DNA of 64,000 nucleotides from Halobaculum saliterrae (GTDB lineage Archaea > Halobacteriota > Halobacteria > Halobacteriales > Haloferacaceae). The position numbers and the translations under genes are program-made. Position 1 is the first letter of the stretch, and every line of letters begins with the position of its first letter. The notes beneath the pieces were generated by a model. It saw only the letters and a list, made by a program, of their open reading frames with translations. It was not told the DNA's origin and searched no databases. The stretch lies in contig NZ_WUUS01000003.1 in the NCBI RefSeq assembly GCF_009831625.1, positions 186,001 through 250,000 on the forward strand, in the 5' to 3' direction. This document shows positions 6,615 through 42,225 of the stretch, one piece after another.

Positions 6615-7472
6615 ATGCGCGGACTCTCCGACATCCGGACGGTGGGCGTCGTCGGCGCGGGCACGATGGGCAACGGCATCGCACAGGTCGCCGCGACCGC
6701 CGGCTACGACGTGGTGATGCGGGACATCGAACGACGGTTCGTCGACAACGGACTGGAGGCGATCGACTCCTCGCTGTCCCGGCTCGACGCGAAGGACGAC
6801 CTCGACGAGTCGCCCGACGCTATCGAGGACCGTATCACGGGAACGACCGACATCGGCGACCTCGCGGACGCCGACCTCGTCGTCGAGGCGGCCCTGGAGG
6901 ACATGGAGGTGAAGCAGGACGTCTTCGAGGACCTGGAGGACGTGACCGACGACGATGTCGTGCTCGCGACGAACACCTCGACGCTGTCGATCACGACGAT
7001 CGCCTCCGCGATCGACCGCGAGGAGCTCGTCGTCGGCCTCCACTTCATGAACCCCGTCCCGATCATGACCGGCGTCGAGGTCGTCACTGGCGAGAAGACT
7101 GCCCCGGATGTGACGGACCTCGCACACGCGTTCGCCGAGGACCTCGGCAAGGAGACGTGGGAGAGCGACGACAAGCCCGGCTTCGTCACCAACCGGGTGC
7201 TGATGCCGTGGATCAACGAGGGGATCCGCGCGTACGACGAGGGTGTCGCCTCCAAGGAGGACATGGACAAGGGGATGAAGCTCGGCACGAACGTCCCGAT
7301 GGGCCCGCTCGAACTGGCCGACCATATCGGCCTCGACATCTGCCTCGACGCCAGCGAGACGCTCCACGAGGAGCTGGGCGATCGCTACAAGCCGGCGTAC
7401 CTCCTCAAGCGGAAGGTCGCCGCCGGCGACCTGGGCAAGAAGACCGGGAAGGGCTTCTACGAGTACGACTGA
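6615..7472 (+). CDS. hbd: 3-hydroxyacyl-CoA dehydrogenase (short, single-domain type)
   Basis: NAD-dependent oxidation of 3-hydroxyacyl-CoA in beta-oxidation, or the reverse in butanoate or PHA metabolism. The N-terminal Rossmann fold has GAGTMGNGIAQ (14-24). The catalytic histidine sits in GLHFMNPVP, followed by KPGFVTNRVLMPWINE at the start of the helical C-terminal domain and GKKTGKGFYEY at the end. The 285-residue length fits the hbd/paaH branch rather than the fused crotonase-dehydrogenases. The open frame extends upstream, but ATG 6615 starts exactly at the Rossmann domain. No other beta-oxidation gene is adjacent. Confidence 0.92.
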   Translation: MRGLSDIRTVGVVGAGTMGNGIAQVAATAGYDVVMRDIERRFVDNGLEAIDSSLSRLDAKDDLDESPDAIEDRITGTTDIGDLADADLVVEAALEDMEVKQDVFEDLEDVTDDDVVLATNTSTLSITTIASAIDREELVVGLHFMNPVPIMTGVEVVTGEKTAPDVTDLAHAFAEDLGKETWESDDKPGFVTNRVLMPWINEGIRAYDEGVASKEDMDKGMKLGTNVPMGPLELADHIGLDICLDASETLHEELGDRYKPAYLLKRKVAAGDLGKKTGKGFYEYD

Positions 7473-7531
7473 CGTCGGGACGCCTCCGTGCGATACGTTT
7501 TAGTCGATATCGTCTCGATACGGACTGAACT

Positions 7532-9274
7532 ATGACGCCGCCCGCGGCGTTGGCTGTCGCGCTCCTGTCGGCCGCGGCCCTCTCGCTGTGGACGGCCGGA
7601 GTCGCGTGGCGCCATCGCGACGCCCGCGGCGGTCGCCCGTTGACGCTGCTCATGCTCGCGTCGTCGTGGTTGGCGCTCACCACTCTCGGCGCCCTCACCG
7701 CGGACGGGTTCACGGAGTTGCTGCGGTGGCAACAGATCCGCTACGTCGGGTACGTCGCGATCCCGCCCGCCTGGCTGCTGTTCGCGCTCGAGTACGCGGG
7801 CCTGGAACGGTTCAGCAGTCGGCGCCTCCGGGTCGGGCTCGCGACCGTCGCCGGCACGGTGTTGATCACCGTCGCGACGATCCCGCTACACGACCTGTTC
7901 TACGTCGGCGGGTCCTACGCCGTGAGCGGCGGCGTTCCGAGCACCAACGTGGGGACCGGGCCCCTGTACTGGGCGACCATCTCGTACGCGTACGTGCTCA
8001 TGGGGACCGGGACGGCGCTCGTGATCCGACAGGCGTTGCGGACGCGACGGCTGTTCCGGCGGCAGGCGCTGCTGCTGGTCGGGTTCGCGATCGTCCCCTG
8101 GGCGGCCAACGCCGTCGCGGTGGCGGGGATCGTGACCACTCCGATCGACCCGACCGTGCTCGTGACCGCTCCGGCGGGGGCACTCGGCGCCGTCGGCCTG
8201 TACCGATCCCGGGTGCTCGACGCCGCACCCGTAGTCCGCGGGGAGGTGCTGGACCACCTCGACGACGGCGTACTCGTTCTCGACGAGGACGATCGCGTCA
8301 TCGACCACAACGCCACGATGGCGCCGTTCTTCCGGGAGACGCCCGCGGTCGGCCGACCGCTGGACGCCGTCGTTCCGGCGGCCATCGCCGACCATCTCGA
8401 CCGCGAGAACCGCGAGTCGACGGACGACGAACACGACTGTGGGACGGTCGATGTCGACCGCGACGGTGAGACGCGGACCTTCGACGTCCGTCGGTCGACG
8501 CTGACGGACACCGCGGGGGACGCGATCGCGTTCGTCTACCTCTTCAGGGACGTGACGGAACGACGCCGGCGGGAGGAGGCGCTTCGCCGACGCAACGAGG
8601 AGCTCGACCGGTTCGCCGGCGTCGTGAGCCACGACCTCAGAAACCCGCTGAACGTGGCGGGGGGGTTTCTGGACCTGGCTCGCGAGTCGGGCGAACCCGA
8701 GCAGTTCGACCGGGTCGAGCGGGCCCACGACCGAATGGACGCGATCATCGACGACCTGCTCGCGCTGGCGCGCACCGAGGACGACGTGGACCCCGTGCGC
8801 GTCCCGCTCGCCGAGGCCGCTCGAACGGCCTGGGAGCACGTGGACACCGCCGACGCGACGCTTCGCGTCTCGGTTCCGGACGGCCACGCCGTCGTGGCCG
8901 ACCGTGGCCGGCTCGCGAGGCTGTTCGAGAACCTCTTTCGAAACGCGATCGAACACGGCGGGTCGACGGTGACGGTCACCGTCGACGCCGGCGACGGCCG
9001 GTTCGCGATCGCCGACGACGGCCCCGGGGTGCCCGACGACATCGCCGCCGGCGCGTTCGAACCCGGCACGAGCGGCGCCGACGGTACGGGACTGGGGCTC
9101 GCCATCGTTCGCTCGGTCGCGGAGGCCCACGGCTGGACGGTGACGATCGACGGCGACGCGGCCGGCGCCCGGTTCGTCGTTCGTGGGGTGGAGACGGGTC
9201 GCGACGACACGTTCGGCGACGCTGCTCGGGCCGACGCCGATGAGCCGGCGGACACGACTATTCGGAACGACTAA
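7532..9274 (+). CDS. Sensor histidine kinase with 7TM N-terminus and PAS domain
   Basis: Membrane sensor kinase of 580 aa. Residues 1-225 form about seven hydrophobic segments (7TM sensor, family His_kinase_7TM). A PAS domain (~235-340, DGVLVLDEDDRVIDHN) and a short coiled coil (RRRREEALRRRNEEL) follow. The HisKA phosphoacceptor is His367 in SHDLRNPL. The ATPase domain has NLFRNAIEHG (N box), DDGPGVP (G1) and GTGLGLAIV (G2). The Asp/Glu-rich tail is probably disordered. No response regulator lies beside it, as is common in haloarchaea, so the output is unknown. A TATA-like GTTTTAGT at 7497-7504 predicts a leaderless message. Confidence 0.92.
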   Translation: MTPPAALAVALLSAAALSLWTAGVAWRHRDARGGRPLTLLMLASSWLALTTLGALTADGFTELLRWQQIRYVGYVAIPPAWLLFALEYAGLERFSSRRLRVGLATVAGTVLITVATIPLHDLFYVGGSYAVSGGVPSTNVGTGPLYWATISYAYVLMGTGTALVIRQALRTRRLFRRQALLLVGFAIVPWAANAVAVAGIVTTPIDPTVLVTAPAGALGAVGLYRSRVLDAAPVVRGEVLDHLDDGVLVLDEDDRVIDHNATMAPFFRETPAVGRPLDAVVPAAIADHLDRENRESTDDEHDCGTVDVDRDGETRTFDVRRSTLTDTAGDAIAFVYLFRDVTERRRREEALRRRNEELDRFAGVVSHDLRNPLNVAGGFLDLARESGEPEQFDRVERAHDRMDAIIDDLLALARTEDDVDPVRVPLAEAARTAWEHVDTADATLRVSVPDGHAVVADRGRLARLFENLFRNAIEHGGSTVTVTVDAGDGRFAIADDGPGVPDDIAAGAFEPGTSGADGTGLGLAIVRSVAEAHGWTVTIDGDAAGARFVVRGVETGRDDTFGDAARADADEPADTTIRND

Positions 9275-30067: not shown

Positions 30068-32476
30068 TCAGCCCCCCTCGGTGGCTCCCTCGTCCGCCCT
30101 CGCCTCGACGGCCGAACCGGGGACCGGCTCGTCGGTTCCGGCGAGGGCGTTCAGCAGGACGACCGCCTCCGGCTTCGAGAGCGGTTCGTTCGCGTTGCCG
30201 CAGTGGGGCGACTGGACGCACGCGGGACAGCCGTCGGCGCAGTCGCAGCCGGCGATCAGCCGGGCCGTGCGCGCGAGCAGGCGGTCGGCGTCGCGGTACG
30301 ACTCGCGCGTCAGGCCCACGCCGCCGGGGTGACCGTCGTAGATGAACACGGTCGACTGCTCGGTGTGCGGGTGAAACGGGGTCGAGACGCCGCCGATGTC
30401 CGCGCGGTCACACAGGAGGTCGAGCGGCATGAGCGAGATGGAGCCGTGCTCGGCGGCGTGGATGCCGCCGTTGAAGCCCGCGTCGCCCCGTCCGGCCTCG
30501 GCCGCCAGCTTCCGCATCTCCCCCTCCACGTCCGCCGGGACCGTGTAGTACAGCGCCCGCGTCCGCAGCGTCGTCTCCGGGAGGTCCAGCGCCTCCGATC
30601 CGATCGTCTCGCCCGTGGTGCCGTCCTTGCGCTCGAACCCCGTGATCTGCTCGGTGACGGTCACGTCGGCGAACCGGATCTCGGTGTCATCGCGCGCGTC
30701 GAGCGGTCGCGACCGCAGGTCTTCGTTGACGGTCACGTCCTTGTCGGTCAGCACCCGGGTGTAGTAGTCCGCCCACGTCGGTCGCAGGCGGGCCACGTCG
30801 CGGTCGAGGTCCAGCTCGTCCACCTCGTACGTCTGGCCCTGGTGGTGGTAGACCGCGCCCGGATGCGCGTCGCGCAGGGCGTCCGCGAACGACAGCGACG
30901 CGATCACGTCGTCGTTGCGAGCGTCCATGAGGTCGACCTCGCGGTCGTCGATCGTCCGGAGGCTCATCGAGTGCTGGGCGCTCCCCGGGCCGTCGTACGT
31001 CCAGCGAACGCCGCGGGAGGTGTCCATCCGTTCGAGCGTGCCGTCCTCCTCCAGCGACTCGACCACCGAGGCGAAGCCGTCGCCGAAGTGGGACTCGTCC
31101 TCGGGGCGGAGCCAGTTCTCGTCGGCCGCGCTGGCGACGTGCCCCGGCTGCAACTCGCCGTTCTCGGGGTCCACCATCGCGCGCTCGGGGTCGCCCTCGA
31201 ACAGGTCGTCCGGGTTCGCCATGAGGTACTGATCGAGTTGGTCCTCGCCGCCGACCATGACGACGAGCGCGTCGTCGGTGCCCCGGCCGGCGCGACCCGC
31301 CTGCTGGAACGCCGACATCCGGGTGCCGGGGTAGCCGTCGAGGATCACCGCGTCGAGGCCGCCCACGTCGACGCCGAGTTCGAGCGCGTTGGTCGACCAC
31401 ACGCCGGCCACGTCCCCCGAGTGGAGTCCGGCCTCGATCTCTCGGCGGCGATCGTCCGTCAGGCTCGCCTGGTACGCCTCGATCCGTCCCGCGATCCCGT
31501 GTTCACCGCGCTGTCGAAGTTCCTTCGCGGAGTCGCTCGCGTACCGCTCGGCGGTCTGGCGCGCCCGCGTGAACACGAGCGTCTGGTACCCCTCCTGTAC
31601 GAGGTCACAGAAGATCCGCTTCGTCTCGGTGTGGCTCGACCGTCGCCGCCCGGACTGCTGGTCGGCCTGCCGGCCCTCGTACTCCGGCGGGTTCCACAGC
31701 AGCCAGTGGCGCGGCCCGCGAGCGGAGGCGTCCTCGTCGACGAGCGTGAAGGTCGACTCGGGCCGGGCCGTCACGCGCGCGGCGTGCTCGACGGGGTTGC
31801 CGATGGTCGCCGAACAGCAGACGAACTGCGGGTCGGCTCCGTACCGCTCGCAGATCCGGTTCAGCCGGCGCAGCACGAGCGAAACGTGGCTCCCGAAGAC
31901 GCCGCGATAGCCGTGCACCTCGTCGATGACGACCGTCTCCAGCGACCCGAAGAACCACTCCCAGTGCTTGTACGCCCACGGGAGCAGCCCGTAGTGGAGC
32001 ATGTCGGGGTTCGAGAGGAGCACGGTCGGCTGGCGGTCACGCACGTCGCGCTTCTCCGACTTCGACAGGCGGCCGGTGTACTGGTCGACGGAGACGCGGG
32101 AGCCGAAGCCGAGTCCGTGTGCCAGATCCGAGAGGGTCTCCGCCTGATCGGCGATGAGCGCGTTCTGCGGCGCGAGATACAGCGTCCGGCCGCCGTGGTC
32201 CATCGCGCGCTCGAAGGCGGGGACGGTGTACGCGAGCGACTTGCCGCTGGCGGTGCGCGTCGCGAGCACCACGTCGTCGCCGTCGCGAACCGCCTCGACG
32301 GCGCGCGCCTGATGCTCGTACAGCGACTCGATCCCCTCGTCGGCGAGCGCGCTCGCGAGCCGCGGCTCCAGGTCCACGTCGGCGAGGGACGCCTCGCGAC
32401 CGGGAAGGGTCCGCCGGTCGGCGATCTGTCCCTCGTAGTAGGGCCGAGAGCGGAGCCACTCGACGGTGTCGTCCAC
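30068..32476 (-). CDS. mrfA: MrfA/Hrq1-type superfamily 2 helicase with DUF1998 domain
   Basis: A 3'-5' DNA helicase of 802 aa related to bacterial MrfA (YprA) and eukaryotic Hrq1, which act in repair of crosslinked or alkylated DNA. Walker A reads ATRTASGKS, Walker B VIDEVHGYRG, motif III CSATIGN and motif VI QQAGRAGRG. The C-terminal DUF1998 part carries the four-cysteine metal site in CDCADGCPACVQSPHCGN (744-761). The TGF-like VEHAARVTARPE insert is unremarkable. It lies 71 bp downstream of an Mrr-like gene on the same strand, with alkyl-repair genes divergently next door. Confidence 0.9.
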   Translation of the reverse strand: MDDTVEWLRSRPYYEGQIADRRTLPGREASLADVDLEPRLASALADEGIESLYEHQARAVEAVRDGDDVVLATRTASGKSLAYTVPAFERAMDHGGRTLYLAPQNALIADQAETLSDLAHGLGFGSRVSVDQYTGRLSKSEKRDVRDRQPTVLLSNPDMLHYGLLPWAYKHWEWFFGSLETVVIDEVHGYRGVFGSHVSLVLRRLNRICERYGADPQFVCCSATIGNPVEHAARVTARPESTFTLVDEDASARGPRHWLLWNPPEYEGRQADQQSGRRRSSHTETKRIFCDLVQEGYQTLVFTRARQTAERYASDSAKELRQRGEHGIAGRIEAYQASLTDDRRREIEAGLHSGDVAGVWSTNALELGVDVGGLDAVILDGYPGTRMSAFQQAGRAGRGTDDALVVMVGGEDQLDQYLMANPDDLFEGDPERAMVDPENGELQPGHVASAADENWLRPEDESHFGDGFASVVESLEEDGTLERMDTSRGVRWTYDGPGSAQHSMSLRTIDDREVDLMDARNDDVIASLSFADALRDAHPGAVYHHQGQTYEVDELDLDRDVARLRPTWADYYTRVLTDKDVTVNEDLRSRPLDARDDTEIRFADVTVTEQITGFERKDGTTGETIGSEALDLPETTLRTRALYYTVPADVEGEMRKLAAEAGRGDAGFNGGIHAAEHGSISLMPLDLLCDRADIGGVSTPFHPHTEQSTVFIYDGHPGGVGLTRESYRDADRLLARTARLIAGCDCADGCPACVQSPHCGNANEPLSKPEAVVLLNALAGTDEPVPGSAVEARADEGATEGG

Positions 32477-32547
32477 GGTGATCGTGCGTGGGGACTGGCG
32501 TGCTTACCGGTTGCGGTCGATCCGCGGTTCGGCAGCGGTCGCTCGGG

Positions 32548-32967
32548 TCACTCGTGCTCGCGGTCGTCGCCGTCCGCCGCCGGAAGCGTGACGTCGGCGT
32601 CGCGGGCCAGCGAGACGAGCCCGACGCCGTCGTACACGTCGACCGGCCCGGCGCGAGCGCGTCGGGTCGCGTCCGGGTCGACCTCGTCGACCGTCGCGAG
32701 CACCGCAAAGGTGAGGTCCCGCTCGTCCGCGAACGCCGCGAACTCGTCCACGTCGGCGGCGGTCACGGGCTCGCGGCGGAGGCTGACGACGGCCCGTTCG
32801 GGCGGGCCCTCCGGCCGGTCGCGGGTGAGCGACACCTCGACGGTTCCGTCGGGGGTCGCGGGGGAGGCGGCCGCCTCGAACTCCGGCCAGATCCCTCCCA
32901 ACCGCTCGGCAAAGGCGGCGAACTTCCCGTCCGGAAGCGCGGCGAGCCTGTCGGCCGGATGGCGCAT
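32548..32967 (-). CDS. Mrr-like (restriction endonuclease-fold) protein, probably catalytically degenerate
   Basis: A 139-aa protein that I do not recognise from any named family. Its second half, EPVTAADVDEFAAFADERDL, then TFAVLATVDEVDP, ATRRARAGPVDVYDGVGLVSL, has the order of elements of the Mrr_cat fold (post-catalytic helix, GIFVTTS-like strand, final LIDGxxL strand and helix). The catalytic D...ExK (usually QCK) appears as ERAVVSLRR, without acid or lysine in place. ATG 32967 is preferred over 33003 because a TATA-like GGTTTTTGACC lies ~27 bp before it. It is co-directional with mrfA, as expected for a helicase partner. Confidence 0.6.
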   Translation of the reverse strand: MRHPADRLAALPDGKFAAFAERLGGIWPEFEAAASPATPDGTVEVSLTRDRPEGPPERAVVSLRREPVTAADVDEFAAFADERDLTFAVLATVDEVDPDATRRARAGPVDVYDGVGLVSLARDADVTLPAADGDDREHE

Positions 32968-33086
32968 ACGTCGCGGTACGACCGCCTCGGTCAAAAACCG
33001 CATCGGTCCCGTCCGACGCCGACGATCCGCCGGTGGTCGTGCCCGATCGCCGCCGGGTTGAATACGGCTCCCCCGTCACGGCCGGT

Positions 33087-33599
33087 ATGGACCCGACGGC
33101 GAAGCGAGCGGCCTACGACGACCCGGTGACGCTCGCGGTTCCCGGCGGGCGGCTCACGCTCGACGCGTCGTCCGTCGACGCCGCGGCCGACGAGATCCGG
33201 CGGCAGGCGCGCGAGTACCGCGAAGGAAGCCGGACCGCCTTCGATCTCTCCGTCCGATATCCCGACGGCTTCACCGGCCGGGTGATGGGCGCGATGGCGA
33301 CGATCCCGTACGGCGAGACGCGGACCTACGGCGACATCGCCGAGGACCTCGACAGCGCGCCCCAGTCGGTCGGCGCCGCCTGCGGCCGCAACCCGGTCCC
33401 ACTGATCGTCCCGTGTCACCGCGTCGTCGCCGCCGAGGGGCTCGGCGGCTTCTCGGCGGAGGGCGGGCCCGAACTCAAGCGACGGCTGCTCGAACACGAG
33501 CGCAGCGACTCCGTGCAGGTCACGCTCGACGAGGCCGGCGGCGACCGCGACGGGACCGAGGGCAGCGGTCCCGACGAGGACTGCGGAGAGAACCGATGA
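33087..33599 (+). CDS. ogt: Methylated-DNA--protein-cysteine methyltransferase
   Basis: Suicide repair enzyme that removes alkyl groups from O6-alkylguanine onto Cys110 in VPCHRVV. The DNA-binding helix-turn-helix is IPYGETRTYGDIAE, followed by AVGRNPV-like GAACGRNPVPLIVPCHRV. The N-terminal ~55 residues form the usual small domain, and a disordered acidic tail follows. Length 170 aa. Its TGA overlaps the ATG of the DUF123 gene (ATGA), so both are made together. Confidence 0.93.
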   Translation: MDPTAKRAAYDDPVTLAVPGGRLTLDASSVDAAADEIRRQAREYREGSRTAFDLSVRYPDGFTGRVMGAMATIPYGETRTYGDIAEDLDSAPQSVGAACGRNPVPLIVPCHRVVAAEGLGGFSAEGGPELKRRLLEHERSDSVQVTLDEAGGDRDGTEGSGPDEDCGENR

Positions 33600-34069
33600 G
33601 CGACGCGGGCACCTACACGCTGGTGTTCGCGGTTCCGGAGCCGATCGTCGTCGAGGTGGGCGCGCTCGACGTCCACAAGGTCCCGGCGGGCGGGTACGCC
33701 TACACAGGCAGCGCGCTCGGCTCCGGCGGGTTCTCGCGGATCGATCGCCACCGTCGGGTCGCCGCCGGCGAGCACGACGTCCGTCACTGGCACGTCGACT
33801 ACCTGGGCGGCCACCGAGACGTGTCGCTGTCGACCGTCGAGCGCCTCGGCGGCGGCCGCGACGAGGAGTGCCGCATCGCGCGGACGCTCGCGGCGGCGGC
33901 CGCCGACGGCGACCCGGTCGACGGATTCGGCGCCTCCGACTGCGACTGCACGTCCCACCTCGCGCGGTTCGACGGGGTCGCCGCCGCGGAGGCGGCGGTG
34001 TCGACGGCGTACGACGAGATCCGAGGGGACGACGGGGCTCGGGAGTCGTGCGAACCGAACGCGCGCTGA
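33596..34069 (+). CDS. DUF123 (GIY-YIG-like) nuclease-related protein
   Basis: A 157-residue member of the DUF123/COG1833 family, distantly related to GIY-YIG endonucleases and often fused to EndoIII in archaea. It shows TYTLVFAVPE, VPAGGYAYTGSALGSGGFSR (the GIY-YIG-like core), RHWHVDYL and a cysteine cluster, ASDCDCTSHL. The family is Cys/His-rich and may be a nuclease. The overlap with ogt suggests a DNA-repair role. Activity is unproven. Confidence 0.85.
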   Translation: MSDAGTYTLVFAVPEPIVVEVGALDVHKVPAGGYAYTGSALGSGGFSRIDRHRRVAAGEHDVRHWHVDYLGGHRDVSLSTVERLGGGRDEECRIARTLAAAAADGDPVDGFGASDCDCTSHLARFDGVAAAEAAVSTAYDEIRGDDGARESCEPNAR

Positions 34070-34105: not shown

Positions 34106-35317
34106 ATGTTCCCGCCGCTCGCGTACCTGCAGTGGATCGAGGGGCGTCCGGCCGCCGCCGAGCACGACCTCGGCTCCAGCGATCTCCGGCGGCCGCCCGA
34201 CGGCGACCCCGACGACCCCGTACCGCCCCGACTCCGCGGGCGCTCCGCGCCGAGCGACGGCCGATCGCTGCGCGAGGACGTCGCCGACGAGTACGGCGTC
34301 GGCGAGGCCAACGTGCTGCTCACCGCCGGCGCGACCCACGGCGGCTTCCTCGCGTGCGCCGCGGCCGCGGCACTCGCCCGGGAGCACCACGACGATGCGC
34401 CCCGCGACGACGGCCAGACCCCCGCCGACGCCGTCGGGGGCAACGGACCACGGCCGTGTGCGCTGGTCGAGATGCCCGGCTACGAGCCGTTGGTCGAGAC
34501 GCCGCGCGGCGTCGGCACCCGAGTCGCGCGCTTCCGCCGGCCCGGTCCCGAACACGGCCTCGACCCCGAACGTGTCGCGACGGCCGCTCGCGACCTCGCG
34601 GGACCGCTCGCACACGTCACGGTGACGAATCGGCACAACCCGACGGGCGCCCTGGTCGACCGCGCGACCCTCGCGGCGACGGCCGAGGTCGCGGCCGACC
34701 ACGGCGGTTACCTGCTCGTCGACGAGGTGTACGCGCCGTACACGGGCGGGACTGGCGGCAACGATGCGATCGTTGGCGGCGACGTACGCGGCAGTGACGA
34801 CGCCCCCGGCGACGCCTTCGGCGGGCCGACGGGCGCCGGGTTGCCGGCGACAGTCACCGTCGGGTCGCTCACGAAGTTCCACGGACTGGGCGGGCTCCGC
34901 GTCGGCTGGATAACCGGCCCCGAGGCGTTCATCGAGCGCGCGCGGCTGGTGGAGCACCACGTTCCCGCGCTCGCCGCGCCGAGCGTCGCGCTCGCGCGGC
35001 GCCTGTTCGCCGACCTCGACGACCTCGTCGCCGACGCCCGCGACCACTGCCGCCGGAACCACGAGCTGCTCGCCGGGTTCCTCGCGGACCGCGACGACCT
35101 CGGCGGGTCCGTCGAGCCCGGGTCGCCCTTCGCGTATCTGGAACACGAACGCGCCGACGGCGACGCGGTGAGCGAGGCCGCGTGGGACGCCGGCGTCCTC
35201 GTCGTCCCCGGCCGGTTCTTCGGGATGCGCGAGGGGGTCCGCGTCTCGCTGGGCCGGGCGCCCGACGACTGCGAGGCGGCGCTCGAGGCGTTCGGACGGG
35301 TGCTCGACGGGTTGTAG
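34106..35317 (+). CDS. PLP-dependent aminotransferase, class I/II
   Basis: A 403-aa fold-type I enzyme. The cofactor lysine is Lys257 in SLTKFHGLGGLRVGW. Phosphate-binding GATHGG, the NRHNPTG motif (Asn that contacts PLP) and VDEVYAPY (Asp) are all present. Its C-terminal domain ends with FGMREGVRVSLGRAP. Loop insertions rich in Asp and Gly (~95-115 and ~225-245) are unlike bacterial homologues. The substrate is unknown; the set of 60-130-residue loop changes does not fit AspC or HisC closely. It follows the DUF123 gene by 36 bp. Confidence 0.87.
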   Translation: MFPPLAYLQWIEGRPAAAEHDLGSSDLRRPPDGDPDDPVPPRLRGRSAPSDGRSLREDVADEYGVGEANVLLTAGATHGGFLACAAAAALAREHHDDAPRDDGQTPADAVGGNGPRPCALVEMPGYEPLVETPRGVGTRVARFRRPGPEHGLDPERVATAARDLAGPLAHVTVTNRHNPTGALVDRATLAATAEVAADHGGYLLVDEVYAPYTGGTGGNDAIVGGDVRGSDDAPGDAFGGPTGAGLPATVTVGSLTKFHGLGGLRVGWITGPEAFIERARLVEHHVPALAAPSVALARRLFADLDDLVADARDHCRRNHELLAGFLADRDDLGGSVEPGSPFAYLEHERADGDAVSEAAWDAGVLVVPGRFFGMREGVRVSLGRAPDDCEAALEAFGRVLDGL

Positions 35318-36176: not shown

Positions 36177-39100
36177 TCAGCGGAGCGCCTCGGCCACCTT
36201 CTCGACGGGGTGCGGCGGATCGCCGTCGGCGCCGTCGCGCTCCGCGAGTTGCGTCCGGCACGAGGCGCCCGGCGCGGTGACCGTCTCGCCGGGGCTGTCG
36301 TCGACCTGGTCGAACAGGATCGACGCGATCGATTCGCTCATCGAGTGGTGTTCCGCCTCGTAGCCGAAGCTGCCGGCCATCCCGCAACACGTGGAGTCCA
36401 GCGGGTCGACCTCGTAGCCGGCGCGACGGAGCACGCCGACCGCGTGGTGGTCCTTCTTCGTCGCCTTCTGATGGCAGTGCCCGTGGTACGTGAGCGACCC
36501 GGAGCCGTCGAGCTCCATCCCCTCGTCGAGACGGAAGGCGTCGACGTACTCCAGCACGCCGTAGCTGTTGGCGGCGACCGTCTCGGCGGCCGCCGAGTCG
36601 TGGAGGTCGAGCAGATCCGACTGGAGCATCACCGCCTCGCTTGGTTCGACGACGACCACGTCGCGCCCGTCCGCGATGCGGGGCGCGAGGTCCTCGACCG
36701 CCGCGGCGGTTCGCTCTCGGGCCGCGTCGAGGAAGCCCATGCTGTGTGCCGGCCGGCCGGTGTCCTCCACGTCCGCGAGTTCGACGCGCACGCCCGCCGC
36801 CTCCAACATCCGGACCGCCGCCTTCCCGGCGTCGGGGTGGTTGTAGTTGGTGTACGTGTCGGGAACGAGCACGGCGACGCGCTCTGCCTCGGCCTCGGCG
36901 ACCGCGGGACCGCCGCGGTCGTCGTACCACTCGCGCAGCGTCGTCCGATGGAACCGTGGGAGGTCGCGCTCGGCGGCGATGCCGAGCAGTTTCTCCCCGA
37001 GGAACCCCGAACCGGGGAGCCTCGTCGCCCAGTTCGACACGGGCGCGAGCGCCGAGCCGACCCGCGAGACGAGGTTGACGTTCGCGAACAGCCGGTCGCG
37101 GAGGCTCGCTCCCTCGCGCTCGTGACGCTCGTGCACGACCTCCGCCTTCAGCTTCGCCATGTCGACGCCGCTGGGGCAGTTCCGCTTGCAGCCCTTGCAG
37201 CCGACGCACAGGTCCATCACCTCGCTCGTGAACTCCTCGGAGAACGGGTCCGCGGGCAGGTCGCCCGACATCGCCCCCCTGAGGAGGTTCGCCCGGCCGC
37301 GAGTGCTCTGGATCTCCTCGTCGGCCGCGCGGAAGGTGGGACACATCACGCCGCCGGTCGTCGACTGCTCGCCGCGACAGCCGCCGCAGCCGTGACACAG
37401 CTCCGCCATCCCCTGGAAGCCGTTCTCGTTGTCCCAGTTCAATTCCGGCTCGAAGCCGGCGTCGAAGGCGTACTCCGGGTCGAACCGGAGGTGCTCGGTG
37501 AGGCTGTGGTCGCCGCAGACGTTTCCGGGGTTCAACAGCCAGTCGGGGTCGAACGCGGTCTTGAGGTCCCGGAAGGTCGACCAGAGGTCGTCGCCGTACA
37601 GCTTCCGGTTCCACTGAGTTCTGGCGCGGCCGTCCCCGTGCTCCCCGGAGACGCTGCCGCCGTACTTCACGACGAGATCCGAGGCGCCGTCGGCGATGCG
37701 CTCGAACTGGTCGAGGCCGTCGACGGTCTTCGTGTCGACGAGCGGTCGGATGTGGAGCACCCCGGGACCGGCGTGGGCGTAGAAGGACGCGAACGTCCCG
37801 ACCTCCTCCAGCAGCGCCTGGAAGTCGGCGGCGTACTCCGCGAGGTGCTCCGGCGGCACCGCGCAGTCCTCGATGAACGAGATGTGCTTGGCGTCGGAGG
37901 TCCGGCTGAGGAGGATCGGCATCCCCGCCTTGCGCATCTTCCAGAACGTCGCGCGCCGCTCGGGGTCGTGCGCCTCCAGCGCGTGCGTGGCGAACACCTC
38001 GTCGCCCGCGTCGACGCCGTCGGCAGTTGCGGCGACTTCGGTGTCGCTTCCGGGACAGCGATCGGCGACCAGATCGGCGACCTTCTGTCGCCCCTCTTCG
38101 TCGCTCTCGGCGTAGAACTCCACGAGCAGCGTCGAGTCGGTACCCTCGGGCAACAGCCCGACCACGTCGCCGAACTCCGCCGTCTCGCGGGCGAGGTCGA
38201 GGAAGGTGTCGTCCATCACCTCGACGGCGGCGGGGTCGTGTTCGAGGATCCGGGCCACGTCCGCCATCGCGTCGAGCAGCGAGTCGTAGGTGAGCATCGC
38301 GACCGCCTTCGTCTCGGGCACGTCGACCAGCGAGACGGTCGCCTCGGTGACGATCCCGAGCGTCCCCTCGCTCCCACACATGAGCCGCGCGAGGTTCACC
38401 GTCCCCGCCTCGCCGGTGCCGCCGCCGGCCTCCGGCGCGTCGCCGGCCCACTCGCCCCGCGCCTCCTCGACGAGCACGTCGAGGTTGTACCCGGAGACGT
38501 TGCGCTTCATGTCCGGGTAGCGCGCGGTCACCTCGTCGCCCTCCTCGTCGATGACCCGGACGAGTTCCGCGTAGATCCGTTCGAGCAGTTCCCCCTCGGG
38601 GTCGGCCTCCTCGCGCATCGTCGCCACCTCGACCTCGCCGAACGTCTCGACGGACCCGTCCGCGAGGACGACCTCGCAGGACTCGACGTACGCGTCGGCC
38701 TTGCCGTACTTCAGCGAGTGCGACCCGGTGGAGTTGTTGCCGATCGCCCCGCCGATCGCGGACTTGTCGCGCCACGCCGGGTCCGGCGCGAACTTCAGAC
38801 CGTGGGGGCCCGCGGCCTCGTTGAGCTCCTCGACGATGCAGCCGGCGTCGACGGTCGCCTCGCGCGCGCCGGGGTCGAGGTCGCGGATCCCGTCCATGTA
38901 CCGCGTGAAGTCGAGGACGACCGCCTCGTTCACTGTCTGCCCCGCCAGCGACGTGCCGCCCCCGCGCGGGAGCACGGGGATCTCCCGCTCCGCGCAGTAC
39001 TCCATCACCGCGGCGACGTCGTCGGTGGAGCGCGGAAGGACCACGCCGATGGGCGTCTGTTGATACGCCGACGCGTCGGTCGCGTACAGCTGTCGGGAGT

Positions 39101-39245
39101 AGGTGTCGAAGCGAACGTCGCCCTCGACGAGGCCCTCCAGGTCGGCGACGAGCCCGGGTCGGGCCACGTCCTCGGAGGCGTAGTCGTAGTCCGCGTCGCT
39201 CAGGTCCGGCCCGCCGTCGGGCGGGGACGGGAGATCGGAAGACAT
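36177..39245 (-). CDS. FAD-linked oxidase/Fe-S protein, GlcD-GlcF (D-lactate/glycolate dehydrogenase) fusion
   Basis: A 1022-aa membrane-associated dehydrogenase for D-lactate or glycolate. Residues ~60-530 form the GlcD part: PCMH FAD domain with LPRGGGTSLAGQ and AIGNNSTGSHSLKYG, then the FAD-oxidase C domain ending YGGSVSGEHGDGRART. From ~630 the Fe-S part begins: CHGCGGC with a later C and P, and CVGCKGCKRNCPSGVDM, giving two 4Fe-4S clusters. Two CCG domains end the protein (HGHCHQKATKK; CCGMAGSFGYE). The ATG is ~30 bp from a TATA box. It is divergent from lutC-lutB. Confidence 0.9.
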   Translation of the reverse strand: MSSDLPSPPDGGPDLSDADYDYASEDVARPGLVADLEGLVEGDVRFDTYSRQLYATDASAYQQTPIGVVLPRSTDDVAAVMEYCAEREIPVLPRGGGTSLAGQTVNEAVVLDFTRYMDGIRDLDPGAREATVDAGCIVEELNEAAGPHGLKFAPDPAWRDKSAIGGAIGNNSTGSHSLKYGKADAYVESCEVVLADGSVETFGEVEVATMREEADPEGELLERIYAELVRVIDEEGDEVTARYPDMKRNVSGYNLDVLVEEARGEWAGDAPEAGGGTGEAGTVNLARLMCGSEGTLGIVTEATVSLVDVPETKAVAMLTYDSLLDAMADVARILEHDPAAVEVMDDTFLDLARETAEFGDVVGLLPEGTDSTLLVEFYAESDEEGRQKVADLVADRCPGSDTEVAATADGVDAGDEVFATHALEAHDPERRATFWKMRKAGMPILLSRTSDAKHISFIEDCAVPPEHLAEYAADFQALLEEVGTFASFYAHAGPGVLHIRPLVDTKTVDGLDQFERIADGASDLVVKYGGSVSGEHGDGRARTQWNRKLYGDDLWSTFRDLKTAFDPDWLLNPGNVCGDHSLTEHLRFDPEYAFDAGFEPELNWDNENGFQGMAELCHGCGGCRGEQSTTGGVMCPTFRAADEEIQSTRGRANLLRGAMSGDLPADPFSEEFTSEVMDLCVGCKGCKRNCPSGVDMAKLKAEVVHERHEREGASLRDRLFANVNLVSRVGSALAPVSNWATRLPGSGFLGEKLLGIAAERDLPRFHRTTLREWYDDRGGPAVAEAEAERVAVLVPDTYTNYNHPDAGKAAVRMLEAAGVRVELADVEDTGRPAHSMGFLDAARERTAAAVEDLAPRIADGRDVVVVEPSEAVMLQSDLLDLHDSAAAETVAANSYGVLEYVDAFRLDEGMELDGSGSLTYHGHCHQKATKKDHHAVGVLRRAGYEVDPLDSTCCGMAGSFGYEAEHHSMSESIASILFDQVDDSPGETVTAPGASCRTQLAERDGADGDPPHPVEKVAEALR

Positions 39246-39272
39246 CGGATGGACGAAGGTGTGCGTGGGAGT

Positions 39273-39280
39273 CACATAAG
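39273..39280 (-). promoter_or_regulatory. TATA box of the GlcD-GlcF gene
   Basis: The minus-strand CTTATGTG lies 28-35 bp before the ATG at 39245, with no Shine-Dalgarno in between, so the transcript is probably leaderless. The operator-like direct repeats begin ~55 bp further upstream. Confidence 0.55.
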
Positions 39281-39334
39281 CCCGCGGGGAAGCGATCGGC
39301 GCGCGGCGCGGTGGTCGCGGCGGCGACCGTCCGT

Positions 39335-39364
39335 CCGCGGACAGTTCGACCGCGGACAGTTCGA
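39335..39364. repeat. Tandem 15-bp direct repeat between divergent oxidase and lut genes
   Basis: CCGCGGACAGTTCGA occurs twice head to tail (39335-39349 and 39350-39364), with no base between copies. It lies midway in the 180-bp divergent region, about 55 bp from the oxidase TATA box and 62 bp before lutC. Two identical, abutting sites fit a transcription factor controlling both directions. Confidence 0.6.
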
Positions 39365-39425
39365 TCTCGCTCGCTCGGTCCGTGCCAACGCAACACACAA
39401 GCACCGGCGTTCACAACGCCCTGCT

Positions 39426-39992
39426 ATGACCGCAGACACACTCTCGACGTTCGTCGACGCCGTCGAGCGCCACCACGCGAGCGTCCACCGCGTCGCGCCC
39501 GACGAGGCCACGTCGACGATCGCAGATCTCGTCGACGCGCCCGCCGTGGGCGTTCCGCTCCCGGACGCGTGGGGGATCGACCTCCCCGACACGGTCGGCA
39601 CGGACCCGACTCCGGCCGATCTCGACGCGGCGGCGACGGGCGTCACGGCGGGATCGCTCGCCGTCGCCGACTACGGGACCGTCGTGCTGGAGTCGGACGC
39701 CGCGGGAAGCGAGGCGGTCTCGCTGTTCCCCGAGCGCCACGTCGTGGTGGTGCGTACCGAGGACGTGGTGCCCGGGATGCGCGAGGCGATCGGCCGGCTG
39801 GGGGACCGCCTGCGCGACGGTGCGAGCGCGGTGCTCGCGACCGGCCCCTCCGCGACCGCCGACATGGGCGAACTGGTGATCGGCGCGCACGGCCCGCGCG
39901 AGGTGGACGTCGTTCTGGTGGAGTCGGCGGGGGGTGGCGAGTCCGTCGCCGGCGACGGCGACCCCGCGACGGGGGGTGCGACCGATGAGTAA
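39426..39992 (+). CDS. lutC: LUD-domain protein LutC-like
   Basis: A 188-aa LUD (lactate utilisation) domain protein. It contains GVTAGSLAVADYGTVVLESD, a LutC-type NagB/RpiA fold strand set, then VSLFPERHVVVVRTEDVVPG and GPSATADMGELVIGAHGPRE near the end, the conserved SxTADIE-like motif. LutC is the small third subunit of the LutABC L-lactate oxidation complex of Bacillus. It overlaps the LutB-like gene by 8 bp. Its substrate is taken from the family. Confidence 0.87.
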   Translation: MTADTLSTFVDAVERHHASVHRVAPDEATSTIADLVDAPAVGVPLPDAWGIDLPDTVGTDPTPADLDAAATGVTAGSLAVADYGTVVLESDAAGSEAVSLFPERHVVVVRTEDVVPGMREAIGRLGDRLRDGASAVLATGPSATADMGELVIGAHGPREVDVVLVESAGGGESVAGDGDPATGGATDE

Positions 39993-42225
39993 GTCCGACT
40001 CCCGCGCCGAGACGGCCGCACGGATCCGCCACCTGCTCGACACCGAGGGCGACGCCGTCGCCGAGAACACCCGCGGGTTCAACCGCGGGCGGTACGAGTC
40101 GACCGGGGAGCTCGGGGACTACGAGTCGCTGAAGTCGGAGGCCCGGGCGATCAAGGAGGACGCCATCGAGCGGCTCCCCGAGCTGATCGACGACCTCCGC
40201 GAGTCGGTAGAGGCGCGCGGCGGTCACCTGTACGTCGCCGACGACGCCGCGGACGCCAACGAGTACGTCCGGGAGGTGGTCGACGGCGGCAACGTCGTCA
40301 AGAGCAAGTCGATGACGACCGAGGAGCTGGACCTGAACGAGGCGCTGGAGGCCGACGGCGCCCGCGTCACCGAGACGGACCTCGGGGAGTGGGTGATCCA
40401 GTTGGCGGAGGAGGACCCGAGCCACATCATCGGCCCCGCGATCCACAAGTCCCGCGAGGGGATCGCGGAGCTGTTCAACGAGCGGTTCGACCCCGAGGAA
40501 CCGCTCGAGACGGCCGAGGAGCTCACCGCGTTCGCCCGCGAGAAACTGCTCGAAGACGTTCGCGAGGCGGACGTGGGCGTCACGGGCGCGAACTTCCTGA
40601 CCGCCGACTCCGGGACGATGGCGCTCGTGACCAGCGAGGGCAACGCCCGCAAAACCGCGGTCGTCCCCGACACCCACGTCGCCGTCTCCGGCGTGGAGAA
40701 GGTGATCCCGACGATCGAGGACCTCGCGCCGTTCGTCGAGCTGATCGCCCGATCCGGGACGGGGCAGGACATCACCTCGTACGTGTCGCTGTTCACGCCG
40801 CCGGTGGCGTCGCCGCCGGTCGACTTCTCGGATCCGGACTCCGCGGTGGCCGATCCCGGAAGGGTCGCCGGCGACGGCGCGACCGAGCCCCACCCGGACC
40901 GGGAGTTCCACCTCGTGCTCGTCGACAACGGCCGGCTCGACATGCGCGAGGACGACGACCTCCGCGAGACGCTGTACTGCATCCGCTGTGGCGCGTGTTC
41001 GAACTCCTGCGGCAACTTCCAGTCCGTCGGCGGCCACGCCTTCGGCGGGGAGACGTACTCCGGCGGCATCGCGACCGGCTGGGAGGCCGGCATCGAGGGA
41101 CTCGACACGGCCGCCGAGTTCAACGACCTCTGCACGGGCTGTTCGCGCTGTGTTCCGGCATGTCCCGTGGAGATCGACATCCCGTGGATCAACACCGTCG
41201 TCCGCGACCGCATCAACCGCTCCGGCGACCCGGGAGACCTCGACTTCCTCGTCGACGGGTTGACGCCCGACGAGGAGCCCGCGGGACTCGACCCCACGAA
41301 GCGCCTGTTCGGGAACTTCGAGACGCTGGCGAGGCTGGGGAGCGCGACGGCGCCGCTGTCGAACTGGGGGGCGGGCCTCGGCCCGGTCCGCGCGGCGATG
41401 GATCGCTGGCTCGGGATCGCCCCCGAGCGCGACCTGCCGACGTTCGAGCGCGAGACGCTCGTCGACTGGTTCGCGGCGCGGGGCGGCCCCCGCGTGAGCG
41501 AGTCGATGGCGCGCCGGGAGGCCGTCGTCTACCCCGACGTGTACACGAACCACGTCGCCGTCGACCGCGGGAGGGCCGCCGTCAGAACGCTCGAAGCGCT
41601 CGGCGTTCGGGTACGCGTTCCCGAGTCCGCGGCGGCCGCGAGCGGGCGCGCGCCGCTGTCGCAGGGGATGGTCGAGACGGCCCGCGAGAAGGCCGAGCGC
41701 TGTCGCGACGCGCTCCTGCCGGAGATCGACGCCGGCCGCGACGTGGTCGTGATCGAACCAAGCGACCTGGCGGCGTTCGAGCGCGAGTACGAGCGCCTCC
41801 TCCCCGCTGACGACGCCGAACGGGTCGCCGACGGGTGCTACGAGGTGCTGGAGTACGTGTTCGGCCTGCTGGAGAACGGCGCGGACCCCGGGGGGCTGGC
41901 GGCGGGCGACGGCGAGCCCGTGGCGTACCACGCTCACTGCCAGCAGCGGACGCTGGATCTGGAGGCACACACGGTCGCCGTGCTGGAGCGGCTCGGCTAC
42001 GAGGTGACGACCTCAGAGACGGAGTGTTGCGGCATGGCGGGGAGCTTCGGCTACAAGTCCCAGTACTACGAGCTGTCGATGGACGTGGGCGAGCCGCTCG
42101 TCGAGCAGTTCGGCGACGCCGACCGCGTGCTCGCCTCCGGCACCTCCTGCGGCGAACAACTGGACGCCCTGCTCGGGTCGCCCGCCGAGCACCCGATCGA
42201 GGCGATCGCGCCCGCCGACGGGTAG
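39985..42225 (+). CDS. lutB: LutB-LutA fusion: LUD domain, two 4Fe-4S clusters and CCG domain
   Basis: A 746-residue protein. Residues ~20-310 form the LUD domain, with VKSKSMTTEELDLNEAL, GANFLTADSGTMALVTSEGN and DLAPFVELIARSGTGQDI. Residues ~330-410 have two ferredoxin-type motifs, CIRCGACSNSC and CTGCSRCVPACPVEID. After ~420 the sequence resembles a LutA/GlcF CCG unit, with HAHCQQRTL and ECCGMAGSFGYKSQYY. In Bacillus LutA and LutB are separate proteins; here one chain carries both. The overlap with lutC and the divergent GlcD-GlcF gene place it in lactate or glycolate oxidation. Confidence 0.88.
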   Translation: MSKSDSRAETAARIRHLLDTEGDAVAENTRGFNRGRYESTGELGDYESLKSEARAIKEDAIERLPELIDDLRESVEARGGHLYVADDAADANEYVREVVDGGNVVKSKSMTTEELDLNEALEADGARVTETDLGEWVIQLAEEDPSHIIGPAIHKSREGIAELFNERFDPEEPLETAEELTAFAREKLLEDVREADVGVTGANFLTADSGTMALVTSEGNARKTAVVPDTHVAVSGVEKVIPTIEDLAPFVELIARSGTGQDITSYVSLFTPPVASPPVDFSDPDSAVADPGRVAGDGATEPHPDREFHLVLVDNGRLDMREDDDLRETLYCIRCGACSNSCGNFQSVGGHAFGGETYSGGIATGWEAGIEGLDTAAEFNDLCTGCSRCVPACPVEIDIPWINTVVRDRINRSGDPGDLDFLVDGLTPDEEPAGLDPTKRLFGNFETLARLGSATAPLSNWGAGLGPVRAAMDRWLGIAPERDLPTFERETLVDWFAARGGPRVSESMARREAVVYPDVYTNHVAVDRGRAAVRTLEALGVRVRVPESAAAASGRAPLSQGMVETAREKAERCRDALLPEIDAGRDVVVIEPSDLAAFEREYERLLPADDAERVADGCYEVLEYVFGLLENGADPGGLAAGDGEPVAYHAHCQQRTLDLEAHTVAVLERLGYEVTTSETECCGMAGSFGYKSQYYELSMDVGEPLVEQFGDADRVLASGTSCGEQLDALLGSPAEHPIEAIAPADG

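Follow-up and report, generated by a model that had tools for sequence, protein, structure and literature searches.

Gene content of the locus

The DNA analyzed here (the window) is a 64,000-nucleotide stretch of Halobaculum saliterrae, assembly GCF_009831625.1, covering positions 186,001 to 250,000 of contig NZ_WUUS01000003.1 on the forward strand. Within it, four genes form two divergent pairs. On the minus strand, positions 30068 to 32476 encode an 802-amino-acid SF2 helicase of the MrfA/YprA type that begins with a GTG codon and in which the DEAD (PF00270), Helicase_C (PF00271), and MZB (PF09369, MrfA zinc binding, E = 3e-21) domains were all recognized above cut-off. On the same strand, positions 32548 to 32967 encode a 139-amino-acid degenerate Mrr_cat protein (PF04471) with a predicted PD-(D/E)xK fold, referred to below as the Mrr-like protein. 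The second pair, on the plus strand, consists of a 170-amino-acid O6-alkylguanine-DNA alkyltransferase (MGMT/Ogt; 33087 to 33599; DNA_binding_1, PF01035, E = 2.5e-26; TIGR00589), with the PCHR active-site motif intact in the sequence IVPCHRVV, and a 157-amino-acid DUF123 protein (33596 to 34069; PF01986, E = 2e-28), whose first 4 bases are shared with the 3' end of the MGMT gene. We take DUF123 to correspond to COG1833. COG1833 has been placed in the GIY-YIG superfamily (PMC1564403). The first-pass annotation had described the same two divergent pairs and the same four gene identities, and the strands, coordinates, Pfam matches, and PCHR motif all bear it out. Gene order was identical in Halobaculum gomorrense, the closest named relative compared.

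Next to DUF123 lies a gene for a PLP aminotransferase (34106 to 35317, plus strand; PF00155), which belongs to a wider syntenic block and adjoins DUF123 in many relatives. Farther along the window, a FAD-linked oxidase/Fe-S fusion (36177 to 39404, minus strand) shows conserved synteny with the MrfA block throughout the family and diverges from a LUD-domain/Fe-S protein (39934 to 42225, plus strand); this pair resembles lactate-utilization genes.

The Mrr-like protein: a maintained gene with a predicted nuclease fold

The Mrr-like protein matched PF04471 with an E value of 8.5e-7 and a score of 29.5 bits against a gathering cut-off of 21, which was also passed by further family members tested. 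For several orthologues, the next Pfam match was to an inactive-REase family, PF22722, below its cut-off. Orthologues were present in all 11 Halobaculum genomes at 64 to 100% identity. The dN/dS ratio of the gene was approximately 0.33, in the range of MGMT (0.30), DUF123 (0.40), and the aminotransferase (0.31); that of MrfA was lower, at 0.14. Because it evolves like these three neighbors, the 139-amino-acid reading frame is, by its substitution pattern, a maintained gene under purifying selection and not a chance occurrence.

Structure prediction, which had been proposed as a check of the nuclease-like assignment, upheld it. AlphaFold2, run on the family alignment, gave a model with a pLDDT of 87 in the order helix-helix-bbb-helix-b-helix-b-helix, which contains the alpha-beta-beta-beta-alpha-beta core of the PD-(D/E)xK fold. 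A Foldseek search of the PDB with this model returned EcoT38I, AspBHI, MspJI, and EndoMS with E values from 8e-6 to 4e-4, and VIA-align gave Z scores of 8.5 to 10 against AF1548, MspJI, AspBHI, EcoT38I, and EndoMS. RNA polymerase Rpb5 chains were also among the fold matches, and we read them as a shared fold only. A search of PDB sequences with the 139-amino-acid protein yielded nothing significant, AspBHI appearing with an E value of 0.6.

Relatives of the Mrr-like protein

Among 170 family genomes scanned, the short form was found only in Halobaculum, with no other clear short-form orthologue, and a longer version with an extra C-terminal part in one genome of the sister genus, G225. Searches with the G225 C-terminal part and with a two-domain alignment uncovered further two-domain relatives in genomes G214, G050, and G377, plus a frameshifted copy in G029. 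Members of this two-domain family, a degenerate Mrr_cat domain followed by the C-terminal part, were located at L045:562-1278, L173:4553-5416 (minus strand), L160:1066-1836, L206 (approximately 7440 to 8150), and L207 (approximately 7349 to 8017). Several other, weak matches to the C-terminal domain were discarded on inspection as antisense or unrelated. When the G225 two-domain protein was folded with AlphaFold2 without an alignment, its C-terminal half was poorly modeled. In the tree, Halobaculum and G225 were joined with support of 100/99, and the whole group including the two-domain proteins with support of 91/83, some rows being long branches. By these searches and this tree, the 139-amino-acid protein belongs, as a truncated form, to a two-domain family that is patchily distributed among haloarchaea.

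The genomic settings of the two-domain genes differ. In G214, the gene lies at approximately 262 kb and MrfA at approximately 60 kb of the same contig, some 200 kb apart, and the neighbors of the two-domain gene are a divergent DUF123 gene, SRPBCC-like and DUF393-like genes, and an aminotransferase gene. The only MrfA relative in G050 is 36% identical and sits on another contig. No MrfA match was obtained in G377 or G029 at E ≤ 1e-60, a threshold that would miss a highly diverged MrfA, and the G029 genome is only 95% complete.

History of the neighborhood

MrfA matches were found in 58 of 60 family genomes. Of 41 loci examined by tblastn, 24 have DUF123 upstream of MrfA in divergent orientation, and at many of these the aminotransferase and the FAD/Fe-S oxidoreductase follow farther out. 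MGMT adjacency was restricted to three genera (Halobaculum, genus g6, and G213), and an Mrr-like gene beside MrfA to two (Halobaculum and G225). The first-pass annotation had proposed an alkylation-repair cluster; however, the DUF123-MrfA arrangement is widely shared, MGMT adjacency is limited to three genera and that of the Mrr-like gene to two, so the four genes do not constitute one ancestral unit. The synteny pattern indicates that the set was probably built up by gene insertion into a preexisting arrangement.

In each of the 11 Halobaculum genomes, and likewise in G225, the Mrr-like gene has the same orientation as MrfA and lies within approximately 1 kb of it. It is immediately adjacent to MrfA in 7 of the 11; in the other four (loci L072, L073, L074, and L076), an SRPBCC-like gene stands between them. 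An SRPBCC-like gene also precedes MrfA in two genomes that have no Mrr-like gene. The proposed conservation of the neighborhood therefore holds within Halobaculum, but across the family MrfA occurs mostly without the Mrr-like gene. In several other genera (L091, L094, and L099), a DUF393-like gene was seen close to the corresponding position.

Conserved elements upstream of MrfA and of the Mrr-like gene

Most of 42 haloarchaeal MrfA upstream regions carry an element of the type RCCRNAACCGKTARGC, 36 to 40 nucleotides before the GTG start and at near-constant spacing, whatever gene lies upstream. In H. saliterrae it reads GACCGCAACCGGTAAGC and occupies positions 32502 to 32518 on the minus strand. 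It scored at least 11 of 14 in 36 of the 42 regions; in shuffles, the corresponding number averaged 1.07 and reached 5 at most. The scoring consensus was derived from the same 42 sequences, which makes the constant spacing the better evidence. The element is promoter-like and would provide MrfA with a conserved promoter of its own. It is unlike a T-rich TATA box. When it was sought across its own genome as the mark of a shared regulon, MrfA was the only full match; the others had two mismatches and were not above control frequency.

Upstream of the Mrr-like gene, the sequence contains a T-rich, TATA-like stretch at positions 32990 to 32998 (minus strand), approximately 28 nucleotides before the start, and a T-run at about the same distance was found in the 10 other Halobaculum genomes listed. 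The Mrr-like gene thus seems to have its own promoter as well.

Comparison with MrfAB and with YprA-family defense systems

Mitomycin damage in Bacillus is acted on by MrfA, a 3'-5' helicase, together with the DEDDh exonuclease MrfB (PMC11194089, PMC12458937). The domain set of MrfA, MZB included, is present in the Halobaculum helicase, and an MrfB-type RNase_H_2 exonuclease domain is encoded in the same genome at C3:282170, approximately 64 kb from MrfA. The system differs from that of Bacillus subtilis in that the exonuclease gene is unlinked, no MrfB-type DEDDh exonuclease gene being found beside MrfA at the Halobaculum locus, and the protein that does lie beside the helicase is unrelated to MrfB. 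Because the genome already encodes an MrfB-type domain at another site, the Mrr-like protein is not needed in that role, and we rejected the idea that it substitutes for a missing MrfB.

Helicases of the YprA family in DISARM, ARMADA, Druantia, TALON, and BRIGADE carry active or inactivated nuclease partners, and inactivated PD-(D/E)xK domains accompany related helicases of the family, while the "YprA only" branch has no conserved context (PMC12458937). The Halobaculum locus shares with these defense systems the helicase family, in or beside which inactivated nuclease domains recur, but no defense genes were recognized at the locus. PADLOC matched the helicase to defense helicases in general and gave no match for the Mrr-like, MGMT, or DUF123 proteins. 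The flanking genes examined have metabolic and transport functions, with no companion methylase, second helicase, or nuclease among them. An anti-phage island was dismissed on the PADLOC result.

Candidate partners of the Mrr-like protein

The first-pass annotation had cast the Mrr-like protein as a DNA-sensing subunit that loads MrfA. In such a scheme, the Halobaculum pseudo-nuclease would bind damaged DNA and recruit the helicase, and its constant orientation and proximity to MrfA in Halobaculum and G225, the purifying selection on its gene, and the inactivated nuclease domains that accompany some YprA-family helicases (PMC12458937) would all fit. Four observations speak against it: MrfA lacks an Mrr-like gene almost everywhere else in the family, so that the expected co-occurrence across haloarchaea was not found; the two-domain relatives either lie a long way from MrfA or belong to genomes in which only a distant MrfA relative, or none, was detected; another gene, SRPBCC-like, intervenes in 4 of the 11 Halobaculum genomes; and the two genes have separate conserved upstream elements. 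Separate promoters do not preclude interaction between the encoded proteins. On balance, we consider a sensing or loading role unlikely, and distribution, synteny, and the separate promoter-like elements led us to abandon an obligate MrfA partner as the leading reading. By analogy, a functional link confined to the Halobaculum lineage is possible, because some other YprA-family helicases are accompanied by inactivated nuclease domains and because the gene stays within approximately 1 kb of MrfA in the same orientation, adjacent in most of the genus. In its specific form, in which a truncated Mrr pseudo-nuclease was recruited in Halobaculum as a lineage-specific DNA-binding accessory of MrfA, we would give this proposal a low probability.

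Alternatively, the Mrr-like protein might work with DUF123 and not with MrfA. The G214 locus, where a two-domain gene diverges from DUF123 alongside aminotransferase and SRPBCC genes with MrfA far off, would be explained in this way, as would the divergent placement of the Mrr-like gene near DUF123 and MGMT in Halobaculum and G225. That DUF123 has a far wider distribution than the Mrr-like gene, and is not found beside the two-domain relatives in G377, G050, and G029, makes such a partnership very improbable.

Loss of the catalytic residues

The Mrr active site reportedly has a "novel configuration," a description attributed to Bujnicki and Rychlewski in 2001. The motif used here, D...QxK, was read from an alignment of haloarchaeal Mrr proteins, the intact members of which show D-[AGR]-G-[IV]-D followed by Q-A-K-R. 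These catalytic residues were sought in the aligned 139-amino-acid family and were absent. The position of the catalytic Asp is occupied by an invariant Glu (E44) in the Halobaculum family and G225. The Gln position holds Ser, Arg, or Ala among the orthologues, and the Lys position holds Arg, Thr, Cys, or Ser in Halobaculum and His in G225; the Arg just after the Lys position is invariant in both. The protein thus resembles the Mrr-type restriction endonuclease domain of PF04471 in its profile score and predicted PD-(D/E)xK core, but differs in the replacement of the D...QxK residues and in standing alone at 139 amino acids. The alignment agrees with the earlier suggestion that the catalytic residues had been lost, with the amendment that the proper motif is D...QxK and not D...ExK. 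Because two catalytic positions, Gln and Lys, vary freely among orthologues, the alignment points to a noncutting pseudo-nuclease.

Some PD-(D/E)xK enzymes tolerate replacement of the Lys, and cleavage through a rearranged site built from Glu44 and a nearby Arg or other residue would be in keeping with the invariance of both residues and with the D and HxR found in some two-domain relatives, but a catalytic site would not be expected to vary as freely as the Gln and Lys positions do, which leaves this option with little likelihood.

In a separate group of degenerate Mrr_cat proteins (L012, L113, L115, L117, L125, and L152), the domain is joined to a hydrophobic segment of transmembrane appearance and an additional C-terminal part. 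Such proteins also lack D...QxK and match the profile of the 139-amino-acid family with E values down to 1.5e-9, but they differ in their length of approximately 345 amino acids, in having a membrane anchor as judged from sequence, and in forming a separate clade in the tree.

Discussion

The locus encodes a pseudo-nuclease whose fold family is known, set in a conserved neighborhood. The explanation that we favor, and hold to be probable, is that a lineage-specific, truncated Mrr pseudo-nuclease was inserted into an older MrfA/DUF123 neighborhood and acts independently of MrfA. What we observed directly is the gene content, the predicted fold, the residue loss, the phyletic and synteny pattern, and the conserved upstream elements. 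The old haloarchaeal neighborhood would have had the order oxidoreductase, aminotransferase, DUF123, MrfA. If the differences among genera are read as gains, MGMT was inserted there, and so, in Halobaculum and one species of the sister genus, was an Mrr-derived pseudo-nuclease gene. MrfA, presumably transcribed from its own conserved promoter, would most likely work as in Bacillus, unwinding damaged DNA in the 3'-5' direction with an MrfB-type exonuclease encoded elsewhere, and MGMT would directly reverse O6-alkylguanine. The 139-amino-acid protein, predicted to keep the PD-(D/E)xK fold without the catalytic Gln and Lys, probably has a nonenzymatic role in DNA binding or protein contact; it would be expressed from its own promoter and would act independently of MrfA.

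Gene adjacency within a single genus gives little ground for identifying a repair partner. The analysis also defines a small family of haloarchaeal proteins with inactivated Mrr domains, with two domains in its wider form and truncated in Halobaculum, of which we found no published description. The haloarchaeal mrfA upstream element, together with the unlinked MrfB-type gene, offers a starting point for asking whether haloarchaea have an MrfAB pathway at all.
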